The notes under the pieces are model-generated. The model was not told the DNA's origin. It searched no databases and was given only the letters and a program-made list of their open reading frames with translations. Both the position numbers and the translations under genes were made by a program. From contig NZ_PGTC01000018.1 in NCBI RefSeq assembly GCF_002786295.1, positions 62,001 through 126,000 of the forward strand: a stretch of DNA of 64,000 bases. The letters are read 5' to 3'. Shown here piece after piece: positions 24,040 to 62,023 of the stretch (position 1 is its first letter; every line of letters starts with the position of its first letter). This stretch comes from Pseudooceanicola marinus. Its GTDB lineage: Bacteria > Pseudomonadota > Alphaproteobacteria > Rhodobacterales > Rhodobacteraceae.

Positions 24040-25518
24040 ATGTCGGATCTCGATTATTCCTCCGAGAGCGCCAAGACCATCGCAGAGCTTCTTTTCGGCG
24101 CAGACAGCGGAATCAAGGTCAACTCGGCCGATCTGATCGGAACCTCGGCGCAGACGCGCACCTATTCCAACGGCGACGACGTCGCACGGGAAGCGACGCC
24201 GGGCGACAACGGCGTGATTTTCTCCACCGGACGGGCCGAGGACTTCAACGCGGGCTGGGGTGATAACCGCAACGACCACCTCAGCAGCGACATGCACAAT
24301 GACTGGGACTGGGATCAGGGCCGCGACCGCGACATCGAAGATGTCGTGCCGGGCAGCGCCCGGTCCTACGATGCTGCCGGGATCGAGCTGAACTTCACCG
24401 CCACCGAAAGCGGGACCTACACCGTGCCGCTGACCTTCCTGACCGAGGAGTATCCGGTCTACTACGGCAGCGCCTACTCGGACAGTGCCGCCGTCTTCCT
24501 CGGTGACGAGAACGGCAACAACATGGAGCTGCTGCCGATCAGCCACCAGGAGGGCGGCTATTTCAACCTGAACTCGATGGAGAACGGGCCCTATCGCAAC
24601 AACGGCGATACCGGCAACTGGCTGCGCTACAACACCGACTTCAACGCCATCAAGACCGGGCACCTGACGCTGGAGGTCGAGGCCGGCAAGACCTACACGC
24701 TGAAGATCGTGGTGGCCGATTTCAACGACGCCAAATACGATTCCGCGCTGATGATCGGCGAAGGGGCCTTCACCTCCACCGCGCCGCCCTGTTTCACCGC
24801 CGGCACGCTGATCGCCACGCCCGACGGCCCCCGCCCTGTGGAAGACCTGGCGCCCGGCGACCTGGTGATGACGCTGGACCACGGGCCGCAACCCCTGCGC
24901 TGGCATGCCGCGACCCATGTCGCCGCCAGCCGCCTGGCGAAGCAGCCGAACCTCTGCCCGGTGCAGATCCGCGCCGGCGCCCTGGGCCCAGGCGTGCCCG
25001 CCCGCGACCTGTCGGTCAGCCAGCAACACCGCATGCTGGTCCGCTCGCGCATCGCTCAGCGGATGTTCGGCGCAGAGGAGATTCTGGTCGCCGCCAAGCA
25101 CCTGATTGGTCTGCCGGGCGTCACCCTGGGCACGCCCGAAGGCGCGGTCAGCTATCACCACCTGGTCTTCGACGGGCACGAAGTGATCGACGCGGAAGGC
25201 GCCGCCGCCGAAAGCCTCTACCTCGGCCCGCAGGCGCTGCGATCGCTCAGCCCGGCGGCGCGGGCGGAACTGGCCGCGCTCTTCCCCGACCTGCTGCGAC
25301 GCCTGGCCGAGGGCGAAAGCCTGCCCGCCGCACGCCCCCTGGTCGCCGGCAAGCGCGGGCGCCGGATGCAGCTGCGTCATCGCAAGAACCACCAACCTTT
25401 GCAGCCGGCGCAGGCCCTCCCCCCGCGCGGGGCGACCGTGGCCCGGATGCCGCAGCCAGCCGGCGTGTCGGCTCTCGCAGCCACCGGGCCTCTTGAACCG
25501 GGACGCGCCCACGCCTAA
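24040..25518 (+). CDS. choice-of-anchor L / Hint domain protein
   Basis: 492 residues, likely exported, with no classical signal peptide. Residues about 1-245 look like a choice-of-anchor L beta domain: TPGDNGVIFSTGRAEDFN, then LTFLTEEYPVYYGSAYSDSA, rich in Asp/Asn/Gly. A Hint domain starts at Cys251 (PPCFTAGTLIATPDGPRPVE) and runs to about 395, ending HHLVFDGHEVIDAEGAAAES. The intein-type terminal Asn and following nucleophile are absent, as usual in the bacterial Hint domains of this group. The last 90 residues are Pro/Arg/Ala-rich. Calcium-dependent type I secretion is possible but not shown; no secretion genes are adjacent. Confidence 0.8.
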   Translation: MSDLDYSSESAKTIAELLFGADSGIKVNSADLIGTSAQTRTYSNGDDVAREATPGDNGVIFSTGRAEDFNAGWGDNRNDHLSSDMHNDWDWDQGRDRDIEDVVPGSARSYDAAGIELNFTATESGTYTVPLTFLTEEYPVYYGSAYSDSAAVFLGDENGNNMELLPISHQEGGYFNLNSMENGPYRNNGDTGNWLRYNTDFNAIKTGHLTLEVEAGKTYTLKIVVADFNDAKYDSALMIGEGAFTSTAPPCFTAGTLIATPDGPRPVEDLAPGDLVMTLDHGPQPLRWHAATHVAASRLAKQPNLCPVQIRAGALGPGVPARDLSVSQQHRMLVRSRIAQRMFGAEEILVAAKHLIGLPGVTLGTPEGAVSYHHLVFDGHEVIDAEGAAAESLYLGPQALRSLSPAARAELAALFPDLLRRLAEGESLPAARPLVAGKRGRRMQLRHRKNHQPLQPAQALPPRGATVARMPQPAGVSALAATGPLEPGRAHA

Positions 25519-27762: not shown

Positions 27763-28752
27763 CTACTCGGCCGGCGCGGTCGGCGCGGTTGGCTTGCTTC
27801 CCCCGTCGACGGTGGCCAGGGCCTTGTAGCCACGGCCGCGCACGACCTTGCCACGCGCCAGCTGGTCGTAGATCAGGTAGAGCCCCGATCCGATCACGAT
27901 GGCCGATCCCAGCACGATATTGGTCCCGGTCCGTTCGCCGAAGACGACGCTGCCCAGGATCACCATCCAGACGAATTGCAGGTTCATCAGCGGGGTGACC
28001 ACGTAGGCCGCGAGGTTGCGCAAGGCCACCACAAGCACCCAGCGGGCGAAAAACAGGAAGGCGGCATAGGCCCCGACCAAGAAAAGGTCATGCGCCGACA
28101 TCGGCGTGTAGACGAAGGGCAGCGCCACCGCCATGACCAGGGCCAGCGTTGCATTGGGCCAGAAGACCTGCGCCAGGGCGTTGCTTTCAAACCGGCCGAT
28201 GCGCCGGGCCATGACCATCGACAGCGTGCCCGAGGCGGTGGCGCCGAAGGCGATCAGATGCCCGGGAGACATGCCGTGGATGCCGTTCGGAAAGAGGCAG
28301 ACGACCCCGACGAACCCGGCCCCCAGGGCGAACCAGACCGCGGTCGTCACCTTCTCCCCCAGGATCGGGCCGGACATCAGCCCGGCGAAGATCGGCATCA
28401 ACCCGATGAAGATGAACACCTCGGCGAAATCCAGCAGCTTGAAGGCATAGAAAAAGCAGACCGAGGCCAGCACCGTGGCGATGGACCGCACGGCCATTTC
28501 CACCGGACGCCGGGTTCGGATGGACTGGATCACGCCGTCGCGGCCGCCCTTCACCCGTTCGGTCACCAGGCAGAAGGCGGCGACCAGCACGCCGGAGATC
28601 GCGTAAAGCTGCGGCGCGGCATAGCCGCCGGCCAGGAACTTGGTGATCGCATCGGCCGAGGAAATCAGCGCGGTGTAGAGCATGACAAGGGCGACCCCGC
28701 CAAGGGTCGCCTTCTTTGCTAGGGTCAGTTTCGGGGTCTTCATTTCCGTCAC
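27763..28752 (-). CDS. EamA-family DMT transporter in the repeat-protein operon
   Basis: 329 residues with about ten membrane helices in two EamA halves, a charged N-terminus (MTEMKTPKLTLAKKATL) and a C-terminal hydrophilic tail of about 40 residues. Likely an inner-membrane exporter. Its ATG overlaps the end of the upstream 372-residue gene by 4 bp, so it is co-translated with that gene and probably serves the same process. EamA proteins normally move small metabolites rather than peptides, so a link to the FTSGSAP protein is only positional. Confidence 0.83.
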   Translation of the reverse strand: MTEMKTPKLTLAKKATLGGVALVMLYTALISSADAITKFLAGGYAAPQLYAISGVLVAAFCLVTERVKGGRDGVIQSIRTRRPVEMAVRSIATVLASVCFFYAFKLLDFAEVFIFIGLMPIFAGLMSGPILGEKVTTAVWFALGAGFVGVVCLFPNGIHGMSPGHLIAFGATASGTLSMVMARRIGRFESNALAQVFWPNATLALVMAVALPFVYTPMSAHDLFLVGAYAAFLFFARWVLVVALRNLAAYVVTPLMNLQFVWMVILGSVVFGERTGTNIVLGSAIVIGSGLYLIYDQLARGKVVRGRGYKALATVDGGSKPTAPTAPAE

Positions 28753-29867
28753 GCAAGGGCCCTCTGCTGGGGCGCCACAAGACCGGCGCGGGCGAAACCG
28801 GCGAAGAAAGTCTCGAAATCAGCGCAGGCGCGGGCGGCCCGGTCGAGATGGGCAATGGCAGCGTCATCGGCCAGCGCCTCGCAGATCGGCGCCTCCATCC
28901 GGGTCCAGTCGACGGACCGGGCGGCGTCCATCTCCAGCAGGCATTGCGACATGCGGCGCAGCGGGCCGATCGGGCGTGGCGCGGCGTGGAAGGCCACCCG
29001 GCCCTCCGGCACGGCCTGGCGGAAGACCTCTTCGCGTCCGGCGGTGGCCATCGCCCAGTTGCTCACGAGGAACTCGTGATAGCCGTCATGCGCCATCGCG
29101 CCCTCCCATGCGTCGACGGTGAACCCGTTCGTTTCACGGCTCAGCCAGTCTTCCCAGGTGTCCGGGGGCGTCATCCCCACGTAGCGCATCGCCACGCAGA
29201 TCTCGGCCAGCAGGTCCGCATTCAGATCAAGGTAGGCGAGCGTTCCGGCAAAGTTAAGGCTTTCCTTGGCCGGCTGGGGCAATTGTACGGATTTCCGTCC
29301 ATACTCGCTTAGGTAGAAGGCGATATGGGTCAGTTCATAGGCAGCCTTCTTGTTCGGCACCATGAAGGTCGCGGGGCGCGAGATGAACCGCATCAACCGC
29401 GCCGTCAGGGCCTGCGACTCGTCGCAGCCGCCAGACGGGTCGATCCCCCGGCGCAGCATCAGGCGCCGCGCCTCGGCGCGTTGCAGGTCCGACAGCTCGG
29501 CCTCCGCCAGGCCCTCGGCCCGGGCCCAGTGCACCATGGCCGCAGCCTTCTCGCCCGCCATGCCGAGCGCCTCCAGATCAAGGGCCAGGGACAGGTAGAA
29601 GCGATAGTATTGCGGGAAGAACCCGAGGCGTTTGTCCAGCGTCTCATAGATATCCGCGTAGGGGGCCAGCGCCCCGTCCGGCAGGTCCCCTGACGCCAGG
29701 GTCTGGCCGGTGCTTTCGAGGATGTTCAGCACCTCGGCATTTTCCTTCAGCCAGAAAACGTCCTCCTGTGAGCGGCGTTCACGGGCGAAACGGTCGAGCA
29801 GGGCCGCGCGGCGCGCGGCCCGGCCCTGGCTCCGGGCAGGGAAGGTCAGTTGAATGACATTCGACAT
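28749..29867 (-). CDS. uncharacterised 372-residue protein next to the FTSGSAP-repeat gene (possibly DUF6902)
   Basis: I do not recognise a function. The protein is soluble, predicted mostly helical and rich in Ala/Glu/Arg, with no signal peptide. It starts MSNVIQLTFPARSQGRAARR. A distinctive central stretch, KKAAYELTHIAFYLSEYG (173-190), holds a conserved-looking His, and a second cluster AHDGYHEFLVSNWAM (259-273) has two more. Such His/Glu groups could bind metal, but this is speculation. From memory it may match the Rhodobacterales family DUF6902; this is unverified. The ATG at 29867 is chosen over an upstream extension because that extension would run through a long hairpin. It lies between the repeat gene and an EamA transporter, overlapping the latter by 4 bp. 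Confidence 0.65.
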   Translation of the reverse strand: MSNVIQLTFPARSQGRAARRAALLDRFARERRSQEDVFWLKENAEVLNILESTGQTLASGDLPDGALAPYADIYETLDKRLGFFPQYYRFYLSLALDLEALGMAGEKAAAMVHWARAEGLAEAELSDLQRAEARRLMLRRGIDPSGGCDESQALTARLMRFISRPATFMVPNKKAAYELTHIAFYLSEYGRKSVQLPQPAKESLNFAGTLAYLDLNADLLAEICVAMRYVGMTPPDTWEDWLSRETNGFTVDAWEGAMAHDGYHEFLVSNWAMATAGREEVFRQAVPEGRVAFHAAPRPIGPLRRMSQCLLEMDAARSVDWTRMEAPICEALADDAAIAHLDRAARACADFETFFAGFARAGLVAPQQRALA

Positions 29868-29876
29868 GGGTCGGAT

Positions 29877-29941
29877 CCTTTCCGTCTGGTCGTCGGCACC
29901 TTTTGGCGGCGCCATCGGGTCGGCGACGATCAGACGGAAGG
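29877..29941 (-). other. long intergenic stem-loop before the 372-residue gene
   Basis: Arms at 29877-29895 and 29924-29941 pair over about 17 bp (on the minus strand CCTTCCGTCTGATCGTCG against CGACGACCAGACGGAAAGG), with one bulge and one mismatch and a 28-nt loop. The 3' arm ends in GGAAAGG, which also serves as the ribosome site 9 nt before the ATG at 29867. It may attenuate transcription or mask translation of the downstream gene. Confidence 0.65.
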
Positions 29942-30009
29942 CGTCCTCTCTGCCTCTCCCCTGCCCGGTTCCCCTGCGCGGTCCGGGCAAGTTGCTCGGT
30001 CAGAGCGTC

Positions 30010-30528
30010 TTAGCTGCCGGAGGTGAAGGCCTGGACCATGTCGCCGGCGGCAACCTCGGAGGCGACCGGGGCAGAGCCGGAGGTGAAGGCGTCGACGGCA
30101 TCCCCTGCGGCGGCGGCCGGTGCGGAGCCCGAGGTGAACATCTCCACCGCGTCGCCTGCGGCGACCTCGGAGGTCACCGGGGCAGAGCCGGAGGTGAAGG
30201 CTTCGACGGCATCGCCGGCGGCGGCATCGGTCGCCATCGGGGCGGAACCGGAGGTGAAGAGCTGCACCGCATCACCGGCCGCCGCATCCGAGGTCATCGG
30301 AGCCGAGCCGGAGGTGAACATTTCGACGGCATCCCCTACGGCGGCATCGGTGGCCACGGGAGCGGAACCGGAGGTGAACATGCCCAGTCCGTCGCCGCCC
30401 ATCAGGTCGCCCTGCAGCGCGGGTGCGGAGCCGGAGGTGAACATCTCGACGGCATCGCCATCCAGAAGGGTGTGGGACGCGGCAGACGCGGCGGTGGTGG
30501 CGATGGAAGTTTTACGAACGGCAGACAT
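30010..30528 (-). CDS. FTSGSAP tandem-repeat protein
   Basis: A 172-residue protein with an N-terminal segment of about 23 residues (MSAVRKTSIATTAASAASHT, then LLD) followed by eight repeats. Each unit is about 20 residues: GDAVEMFTSGSAP plus a variable Ala/Asp/Thr/Ser linker such as VATDAAV. The Phe of each core is at residues 30, 51, 71, 91, 111, 131, 148 and 168; unit seven is three residues short in its spacer, and the protein ends exactly at FTSGS. No Cys, Lys (after residue 6) or aromatic residue other than Phe. The ATG at 30528 is favoured over the adjacent ATG at 30531 because GGAG then sits 6 nt away. The layout resembles a multi-core peptide precursor, but no function is known to me. 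Confidence 0.72.
   Translation of the reverse strand: MSAVRKTSIATTAASAASHTLLDGDAVEMFTSGSAPALQGDLMGGDGLGMFTSGSAPVATDAAVGDAVEMFTSGSAPMTSDAAAGDAVQLFTSGSAPMATDAAAGDAVEAFTSGSAPVTSEVAAGDAVEMFTSGSAPAAAAGDAVDAFTSGSAPVASEVAAGDMVQAFTSGS
30013..30459 (-). repeat. tandem 60-bp coding repeats
   Basis: Eight in-frame units within the FTSGSAP gene. Most are 60 bp; one is 63 bp and one 51 bp. The core codons are nearly identical between units (the plus strand shows GGAGCCGGAGGTGAA-like blocks repeatedly), while linkers vary, suggesting expansion by unequal recombination with constraint on the core. Confidence 0.85.
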
Positions 30529-30531
30529 CAT

Positions 30532-61689: not shown

Positions 61690-62023
61690 GATGGCGCTGT
61701 GCGAAGGGATCCGCCGCGTGGTGGATAGGGCCGCGAACCGTCCCGACGTGACCCGCGTCACCCGGGTCCGGCTGGAAATTGGCCAGTTCGCCGGCGTGGA
61801 GAAGGCCGCCCTGTCCTTCGCCTGGGAGGTCGTGATGCGCGGCTCCAAGGCCGAGGGCGCGGACCTCGTGATGATCGACCTGCCCGGAAAGGCGCTGTGC
61901 TACGACTGCATGGAAGAGGTCGAGATCCCCGAACGCCTGTCGCCCTGCCCGCGCTGCGGCGGCGGCAAGCTGCTGCCCCAGGGCGGCGATCAAATGCAGA
62001 TCAAGGACATGGAGGTGCTCTGA
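61682..62023 (+). CDS. hypA: nickel metallochaperone HypA
   Basis: 113 residues. [10 protein letters not shown] gives the N-terminal nickel site (His2), and two CxxC pairs, LCYDCMEEV and SPCPRCGGG, form the zinc site. HypA delivers nickel with HypB to the HupL precursor. ATG at 61682 overlaps hupK by 8 bp. Confidence 0.95.

Follow-up and report, generated by a model that had tools for sequence, protein, structure and literature searches.

A three-gene unit on the minus strand of the window, by which we mean the whole 64,000-nucleotide stretch analysed here (positions 62,001 to 126,000 of contig NZ_PGTC01000018.1 of Pseudooceanicola marinus, family Rhodobacteraceae), looks like a production line for short modified peptides. 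The unit comprises, in this order, the gene for a protein with eight FTSGS repeats, the gene for a DUF6902 protein and the gene for an EamA-family transporter, which overlaps the DUF6902 gene by 4 bp (Table 1); this arrangement had been described in the original prediction and is confirmed here. Such units, which combine a multi-copy peptide protein with an enzyme-like protein and in most cases a transporter, occur in many marine bacteria, and we judge it rather probable that their product is a short modified peptide made broadly in the manner of the ribosomally synthesized and post-translationally modified peptides (RiPPs).

The two upstream genes are tightly coupled. DUF6902 was detected in 108 of the 394 sampled genomes (393 genera) of the Rhodobacteraceae, and a phylum-wide sample yielded it in 7 of 398 genomes, all seven from the same family and the window's own genome among them. 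Across the 110 locus pieces taken from the 108 genomes, a tandem-core protein is encoded on the same strand, at most 700 bases upstream of DUF6902, in 104 genomes, or 104 of the 106 that could be judged (L158 contains a run of N, and L214 is situated at the end of a contig); the precursor is absent from two, L137 and L206. Of these precursors, 103 were recognized by an automatic 5-mer test and one (L147) by reading. A 5-mer occurs at least three times in 94 of the 104 precursors compared to 7 of the 7592 other frames of the same loci, which rules out chance repeats; a two-copy criterion is passed by 375 of the 7592 control frames, so that two-copy arrays rest on position and motif and not on the 5-mer test alone. 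Among 80 named loci, which may overlap with the 108 genomes and represent genera including Pseudooceanicola, Roseovarius, Sedimentitalea and Primorskyibacter, 76 contain a blastp match to the window repeat protein, and some of the remaining four hold arrays with other cores. The RiPP hallmark of an encoded leader/core precursor beside a candidate modifying gene is thus present in 104 of the 108 genomes. A promoter search upstream of the precursors found no clear difference from shuffled sequence.

A relative of the window EamA protein (E ≤ 1e-40) is encoded in 80 of the 108 genomes with DUF6902 and in 5 of the 286 without it, and the EamA gene starts beside the DUF6902 stop codon in 79 of the 110 locus pieces. 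The reading of the unit as a peptide operon, put forward in the original prediction along with the comparison of the two genes across genomes, gains strong contextual support from both kinds of association, and we consider it partly supported.

The window precursor consists of 173 amino acids (172 if counted from the second methionine), and its cores start at residues 31, 52, 72, 92, 112, 132, 149 and 169, that is, at spacings of 21, 20, 20, 20, 20, 17 and 20 residues. Seven of the eight cores are followed by Ala-Pro, and the eighth abuts the stop codon; the codons of the cores vary synonymously from copy to copy. Arginine and lysine are confined to the first seven residues, and comparable short leaders are seen in sampled other precursors. 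The Pfam search yielded for the window precursor a match to SH3_16 that falls under the family cut-off. As for the two families named in the original prediction, DUF6902 is borne out by Pfam, but none of 16 precursors matched DUF6749 at E ≤ 0.1, in a library whose content was not checked for DUF6749.

With a position profile, 698 sites were located in 103 precursors (excluding L137, L158, L206 and L214-L216; the site finder overlooked L144, and the register of L143 is doubtful), with 2 to 20 copies per precursor and a median of 6. In 62 of the 103 precursors the protein ends exactly with its last core, and in 94 that core lies no more than five residues from the end. In the 97 precursors with at least three sites (686 sites), identity at core residues 2 to 5 is 0.981, 0.988, 0.963 and 0.967 within precursors but 0.340, 0.768, 0.357 and 0.465 between them; the site finder scores the core itself and may favour typical cores, but cannot alone create identity within arrays. 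The frame is fixed at both levels (0.976 within and 0.969 between precursors for Gly -5, 0.899 and 0.835 for Phe 1, 0.784 and 0.680 for Pro 7), and the linkers are variable at both. Altogether, 84 of the 97 arrays are wholly uniform at residues 2 to 5, whereas shuffling left 0.2 such arrays on average and 2 at most, and 40 distinct consensus tetrapeptides are found among the 97 precursors. At position 3, Ser (0.87) predominates over Thr (0.09), Cys (0.03) and Asn (0.01), and position 1 is Phe at 0.91; position 1 can differ inside one array (FTSCA, YTSCA and VTSCA in L164), so the constant word is the tetrapeptide at residues 2 to 5. The core FTSGSAP of the original prediction holds for the window but is not universal, changing as a unit between species, and the lack of cysteine noted there for FTSGS does not extend to cores such as FTCGL, FTTSC and MMCCS. 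The proposed check of repeat number against core gave the anticipated answer: copy number varies widely, and the core is nearly fixed inside each protein.

Recent duplication as the sole cause of this uniformity is excluded by synonymous differences. Between repeats of one gene, codons 2 to 5 differ nonsynonymously in 0.012-0.037 of comparisons and only synonymously in 0.41-0.53, and the synonymous rate at the core codons is 0.40 in the 26 arrays whose tetrapeptide was seen once; the identity of the cores is therefore upheld by selection, beyond recent duplication. To judge from the sequences, cores change fast between lineages, with the whole array changing together: a quickly built enzyme tree, in which 100 rows were labelled, requires at least 63 core changes, a count that is approximate because 46 of the 101 inner branches are open, and of 20 pairs of enzymes that are 75-80% identical, just 6 have the tetrapeptide in common. 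Some arrays contain two cores (FCSWS and FSSLS in L246; FSTSC and FSSGS in L179), and these and the mixed arrays of L198 and L100 might encode two products or be in the midst of a change. The divergent cores AQSFS, YIAGL, ALSPSC, LMPTSN and STSSF, found in the divergent systems of L138, L141, L143, L144 and L139/L140, mark how far the core can shift.

The partner protein matches the DUF6902 profile (PF21843) over its full length, positions 1-351, with 476.8 bits against a cut-off of 27, and residues 24-237 also match DUF6895 (PF21836) with 72.6 bits against a cut-off of 23.8. Its structure was modelled with a predicted local distance difference test score (pLDDT) of 93.2, and it is likely an (alpha/alpha)6-toroid enzyme of a DUF6895/DUF6902 superfamily; by our reading of the model and the alignment, the conserved residues appear to lie mostly on alternate, inner helices. 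A comparison of the DUF6902 profile with PDB sequences gave two matches at E 0.3, which are not meaningful. In the alignment of 104 DUF6902 proteins (omitting L140, L212, L213 (partial) and L214-L216 (fragments)), His181 is retained in 102 and is replaced only in L137 (by Gln) and L206 (by Arg), the very same two that have no precursor. Under random placement, this coincidence of histidine loss and precursor absence, which consists of two events, has a chance of 1 in 5253 (L158 excluded). Both proteins additionally lack Glu45, Tyr185 and Asp218; L206 retains Glu222 and His264. His264 is present in 103 of 103 counted rows, and L137, which stands outside this count, has Thr. L137 (G435) and L206 (G671) carry their precursor-less DUF6902 genes at the usual site, and these look to be decaying or repurposed.

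Much of the same residue pattern recurs in DUF6895. We read six non-DUF6902 loci that score above the DUF6895 cut-off and aligned their proteins with 14 DUF6902 rows, the degenerate L137 and L206 included. In this alignment, read by hand, Y177, H181, D218 and E222 are present in all six DUF6895 rows and Y263-H264 in all five that reach that position; the deviations are a Ser180 and a missing Arg at 129/130 in L133, a missing Gly190 in L136, and an Arg one place earlier than the 129/130 position in L135 and L255. In three of the six loci, L134, L135 and L255, the upstream protein carries a motif twice (GPW[FY][VI], DWTF[VI]S-x-NYVYKG and EVAGY[VI]). In L133, two small reading frames in tandem share LVG[PR]W[FY]V; the small frame upstream in L136 contains no repeat, and none was seen in L254. 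Because such motif proteins lie upstream of DUF6895 genes, the superfamily as a whole may be characterized by coupling to precursors with short motifs. The DUF6895 genes of L133, L134, L135 and L255, which come from other families, possibly belong to further peptide systems of this superfamily.

To go by the title of a paper by Shi et al. in ACS Catal., 2026, cited in PMC13352647, a DUF6895 protein is reportedly a lasso-peptide epimerase, and DUF6902 both scores above the DUF6895 cut-off and has the His/Tyr/Asp/Glu pattern in common with that family. In contrast to a lasso-peptide system, no lasso protease or cyclase is found among the scanned window neighbours, and the precursor architecture is different. 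We propose C-alpha epimerisation as the most likely DUF6902 reaction, but only tentatively. The same precursor logic could serve another reaction, namely dehydration, hydroxylation, a Phe1-Ser3 crosslink, acyl transfer, prenylation or the action of a maturation protease. The near-invariant Ser/Thr/Cys/Asn at position 3 and the predominant Phe at position 1, reminiscent of the FxSxx motif, would suit such chemistry, the conserved His, Asp and Glu could serve as metal ligands, and toroid enzymes, terpene cyclases among them, are generally known to be chemically diverse. Nevertheless, we consider this alternative unlikely, if the strongest of the competing explanations, given that there is no radical S-adenosylmethionine (SAM) or other cofactor enzyme among the scanned window neighbours and that the nearest characterised relative is, by that title, an epimerase.

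We infer modification of the core by DUF6902, the residue concerned, its epimerisation, cleavage, export and a biological role as parts of a single pathway that would proceed as follows. The upstream gene would encode a cytosolic precursor in which a short leader precedes tandem copies of a single short core (F-TSGS in the window), and each copy would be embedded in the fixed frame G-x-x-[VT]-x-[MLA]-F-[core 2-5]-x-P. Every core would be acted on by DUF6902, recognising the frame and not the variable tetrapeptide, with His181 and His264 as the acid/base pair of the epimerisation, together with Asp218, Glu222, Tyr177 and Tyr185. The target of the epimerisation would most plausibly be position 3, near-invariantly Ser/Thr/Cys, or an adjacent residue. 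A housekeeping protease would then release the short peptide, and the EamA protein would export it. EamA proteins are usually transporters of small molecules, which would be compatible with a very small product.

Several observations weigh against this pathway. No protease is encoded in the three-gene unit, and 28 of the 108 DUF6902 genomes have no EamA match at E ≤ 1e-40. Furthermore, the best of five AlphaFold models of the window precursor is a strand ladder (pLDDT 68.8, predicted template modelling score (pTM) 0.57), so that a folded repeat protein is possible. The repeat protein could then itself be the end product, a beta-solenoid or ligand array that is never cleaved, in which a TSGS-type face binds something periodic and DUF6902 serves as a partner or modifier. 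Uniform arrays would suit a repeated binding face, and the spacing between cores is mostly regular, with 542 of 595 gaps being 20-21 residues. However, the other four models score 51-57, two-copy arrays and 8-residue spacings occur, and the N-terminus, to our eye, does not resemble a signal peptide. Moreover, a face that binds a single ligand should not shift among 40 tetrapeptides or differ in all but 6 of 20 pairs of closely similar enzymes. Taken together, we find a structural end product doubtful, and clearly less credible than a processed precursor. It is more improbable still that DUF6902 is not an enzyme but a binding or immunity protein or a core receptor, with the core as a signal or bait under antagonistic selection: the cores do evolve fast relative to their partner, with the 63 or more changes and the few shared tetrapeptides noted above, but a specific receptor should follow the tetrapeptide, yet DUF6902 proteins 75-80% identical meet different cores, the His, Asp, Glu and Tyr in common with DUF6895 look catalytic, and there is no PADLOC match.

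The unit in the window lies between dgt-like and exonuclease genes, and the 80 named loci mostly share these neighbours. An exonuclease gene, recognized by a short motif, is located no more than about 1.5 kb away from the dgt-like gene in 11 of 18 loci without DUF6902, compared to 0 of 11 DUF6902-positive loci read likewise; the 18 negative loci, which have short flanks, are among those most similar to the window's dgt-like gene and are not a random sample. From this spacing and the shared neighbours, the unit gives the impression of an optional cassette that occupies one fixed place in the chromosome. In the 18 negative loci, no FxSxx-type array was observed, and the only repeats noted were the Arg-rich ones of two loci. 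In L248 (G767), whose genome has no DUF6902 match, an EamA relative carries two internal stops, and a short-motif search of that locus found no DUF6902 or FxSxx remnant. A PADLOC-listed defence system was considered and rejected, the three unit proteins having no match at E ≤ 1. A phage origin is likewise unsupported: the transporter matches phrog_18638 (function unknown), and the precursor gave a single weak match (E 0.0078). The scanned window neighbours are the EamA, HD (dgt-like), Hint, iron-sulfur (Fe-S) biosynthesis, exonuclease-like, FAD and DksA genes. A Hint_2 domain occupies residues 250-396 of a 492-amino-acid protein encoded on the plus strand (24040..25518).

Table 1. Features of the peptide unit, in window coordinates (DMT, drug/metabolite transporter)
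Feature	Position	Strand	Match or basis
Tandem-core precursor, 173 aa, ending in FTSGS-stop	30010..30531	-	no Pfam/NCBIfam family above cut-off
Leader-like N-terminal segment, about 23 residues, with the only Arg/Lys of the protein	30463..30531	-	sequence reading
Core 1, FTSGS	30427..30441	-	
Core 2, FTSGS	30364..30378	-	
Core 3, FTSGS	30304..30318	-	
Core 4, FTSGS	30244..30258	-	
Core 5, FTSGS	30184..30198	-	
Core 6, FTSGS	30124..30138	-	
Core 7, FTSGS	30073..30087	-	
Core 8, FTSGS, C-terminal	30013..30027	-	
DUF6902 protein, 372 aa, candidate precursor-modifying enzyme	28749..29867	-	PF21843, E 4.6e-143
His181 codon of DUF6902, YELTH motif	29325..29327	-	
His264 codon of DUF6902, DxYH motif	29076..29078	-	
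EamA-family (DMT) transporter	27763..28752	-	PF00892, E 8e-14

The precursor and its DUF6902 partner look new, but the RiPP-like multi-core logic is already known from other systems. The fungal Kex2-processed repeat proteins (KEPs), which include ustiloxin precursors and the yeast alpha-factor, have repeats that are highly diverse between species, and 22% of the KEP genes are accompanied by a modifying DUF3328 gene (PMC7329392). The window unit and its relatives resemble them in having many short repeated cores per gene, species-level diversity and a DUF gene alongside. They differ in being bacterial, in having DUF6902 and not DUF3328 as a partner, and in showing no secretory signal by eye; also, the window precursor has no Lys or Arg after residue 7 and therefore no dibasic Kex2-type sites between the cores. 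Among bacteria, the microviridin precursor AMdnA likewise combines several cores in one protein with one enzyme, the ATP-grasp ligase AMdnC (PMC5934393), but it has three cores compared to up to 20 here, and no ATP-grasp gene was found among the scanned neighbours. The actinobacterial FxSxx-COOH peptides share the F-x-S-x-x core at the C-terminus of a small protein, but as one C-terminal peptide, not a repeated core (PMC7159879). No radical SAM/SPASM or zincin peptidase gene was found among the scanned window neighbours, the part of the genome that was searched. The NCBIfam search of 16 precursors returned no match, the presence of the FxSxx model (TIGR04268) in the library being unchecked. 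A search of the open-access literature found no paper that names DUF6902, DUF6749 or FTSGSAP or describes this system.

The resemblance to KEPs invites a more specific reading, which we consider unlikely and put forward as speculation: these units could be for Gram-negative bacteria what repeat-pheromone precursors are for fungi, with every lineage making its own tetrapeptide in 2-20 copies, which DUF6902, reading the frame, would epimerise and EamA would export as a lineage-specific signal or weapon. When the word changed, it would be swapped across the whole array, and the product would carry a D-residue.

If the proposed pathway is correct, DUF6902 would gain a function, and the precedent of DUF6895 would widen to a superfamily of precursor-coupled enzymes. 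This would affect about a quarter of the sampled genomes (108 of 394) of one bacterial family. The arrays, furthermore, amount to a natural library in which closely related enzymes meet many tetrapeptides, so that the specificity of the enzyme and a role of the peptides in signalling would be directly testable.

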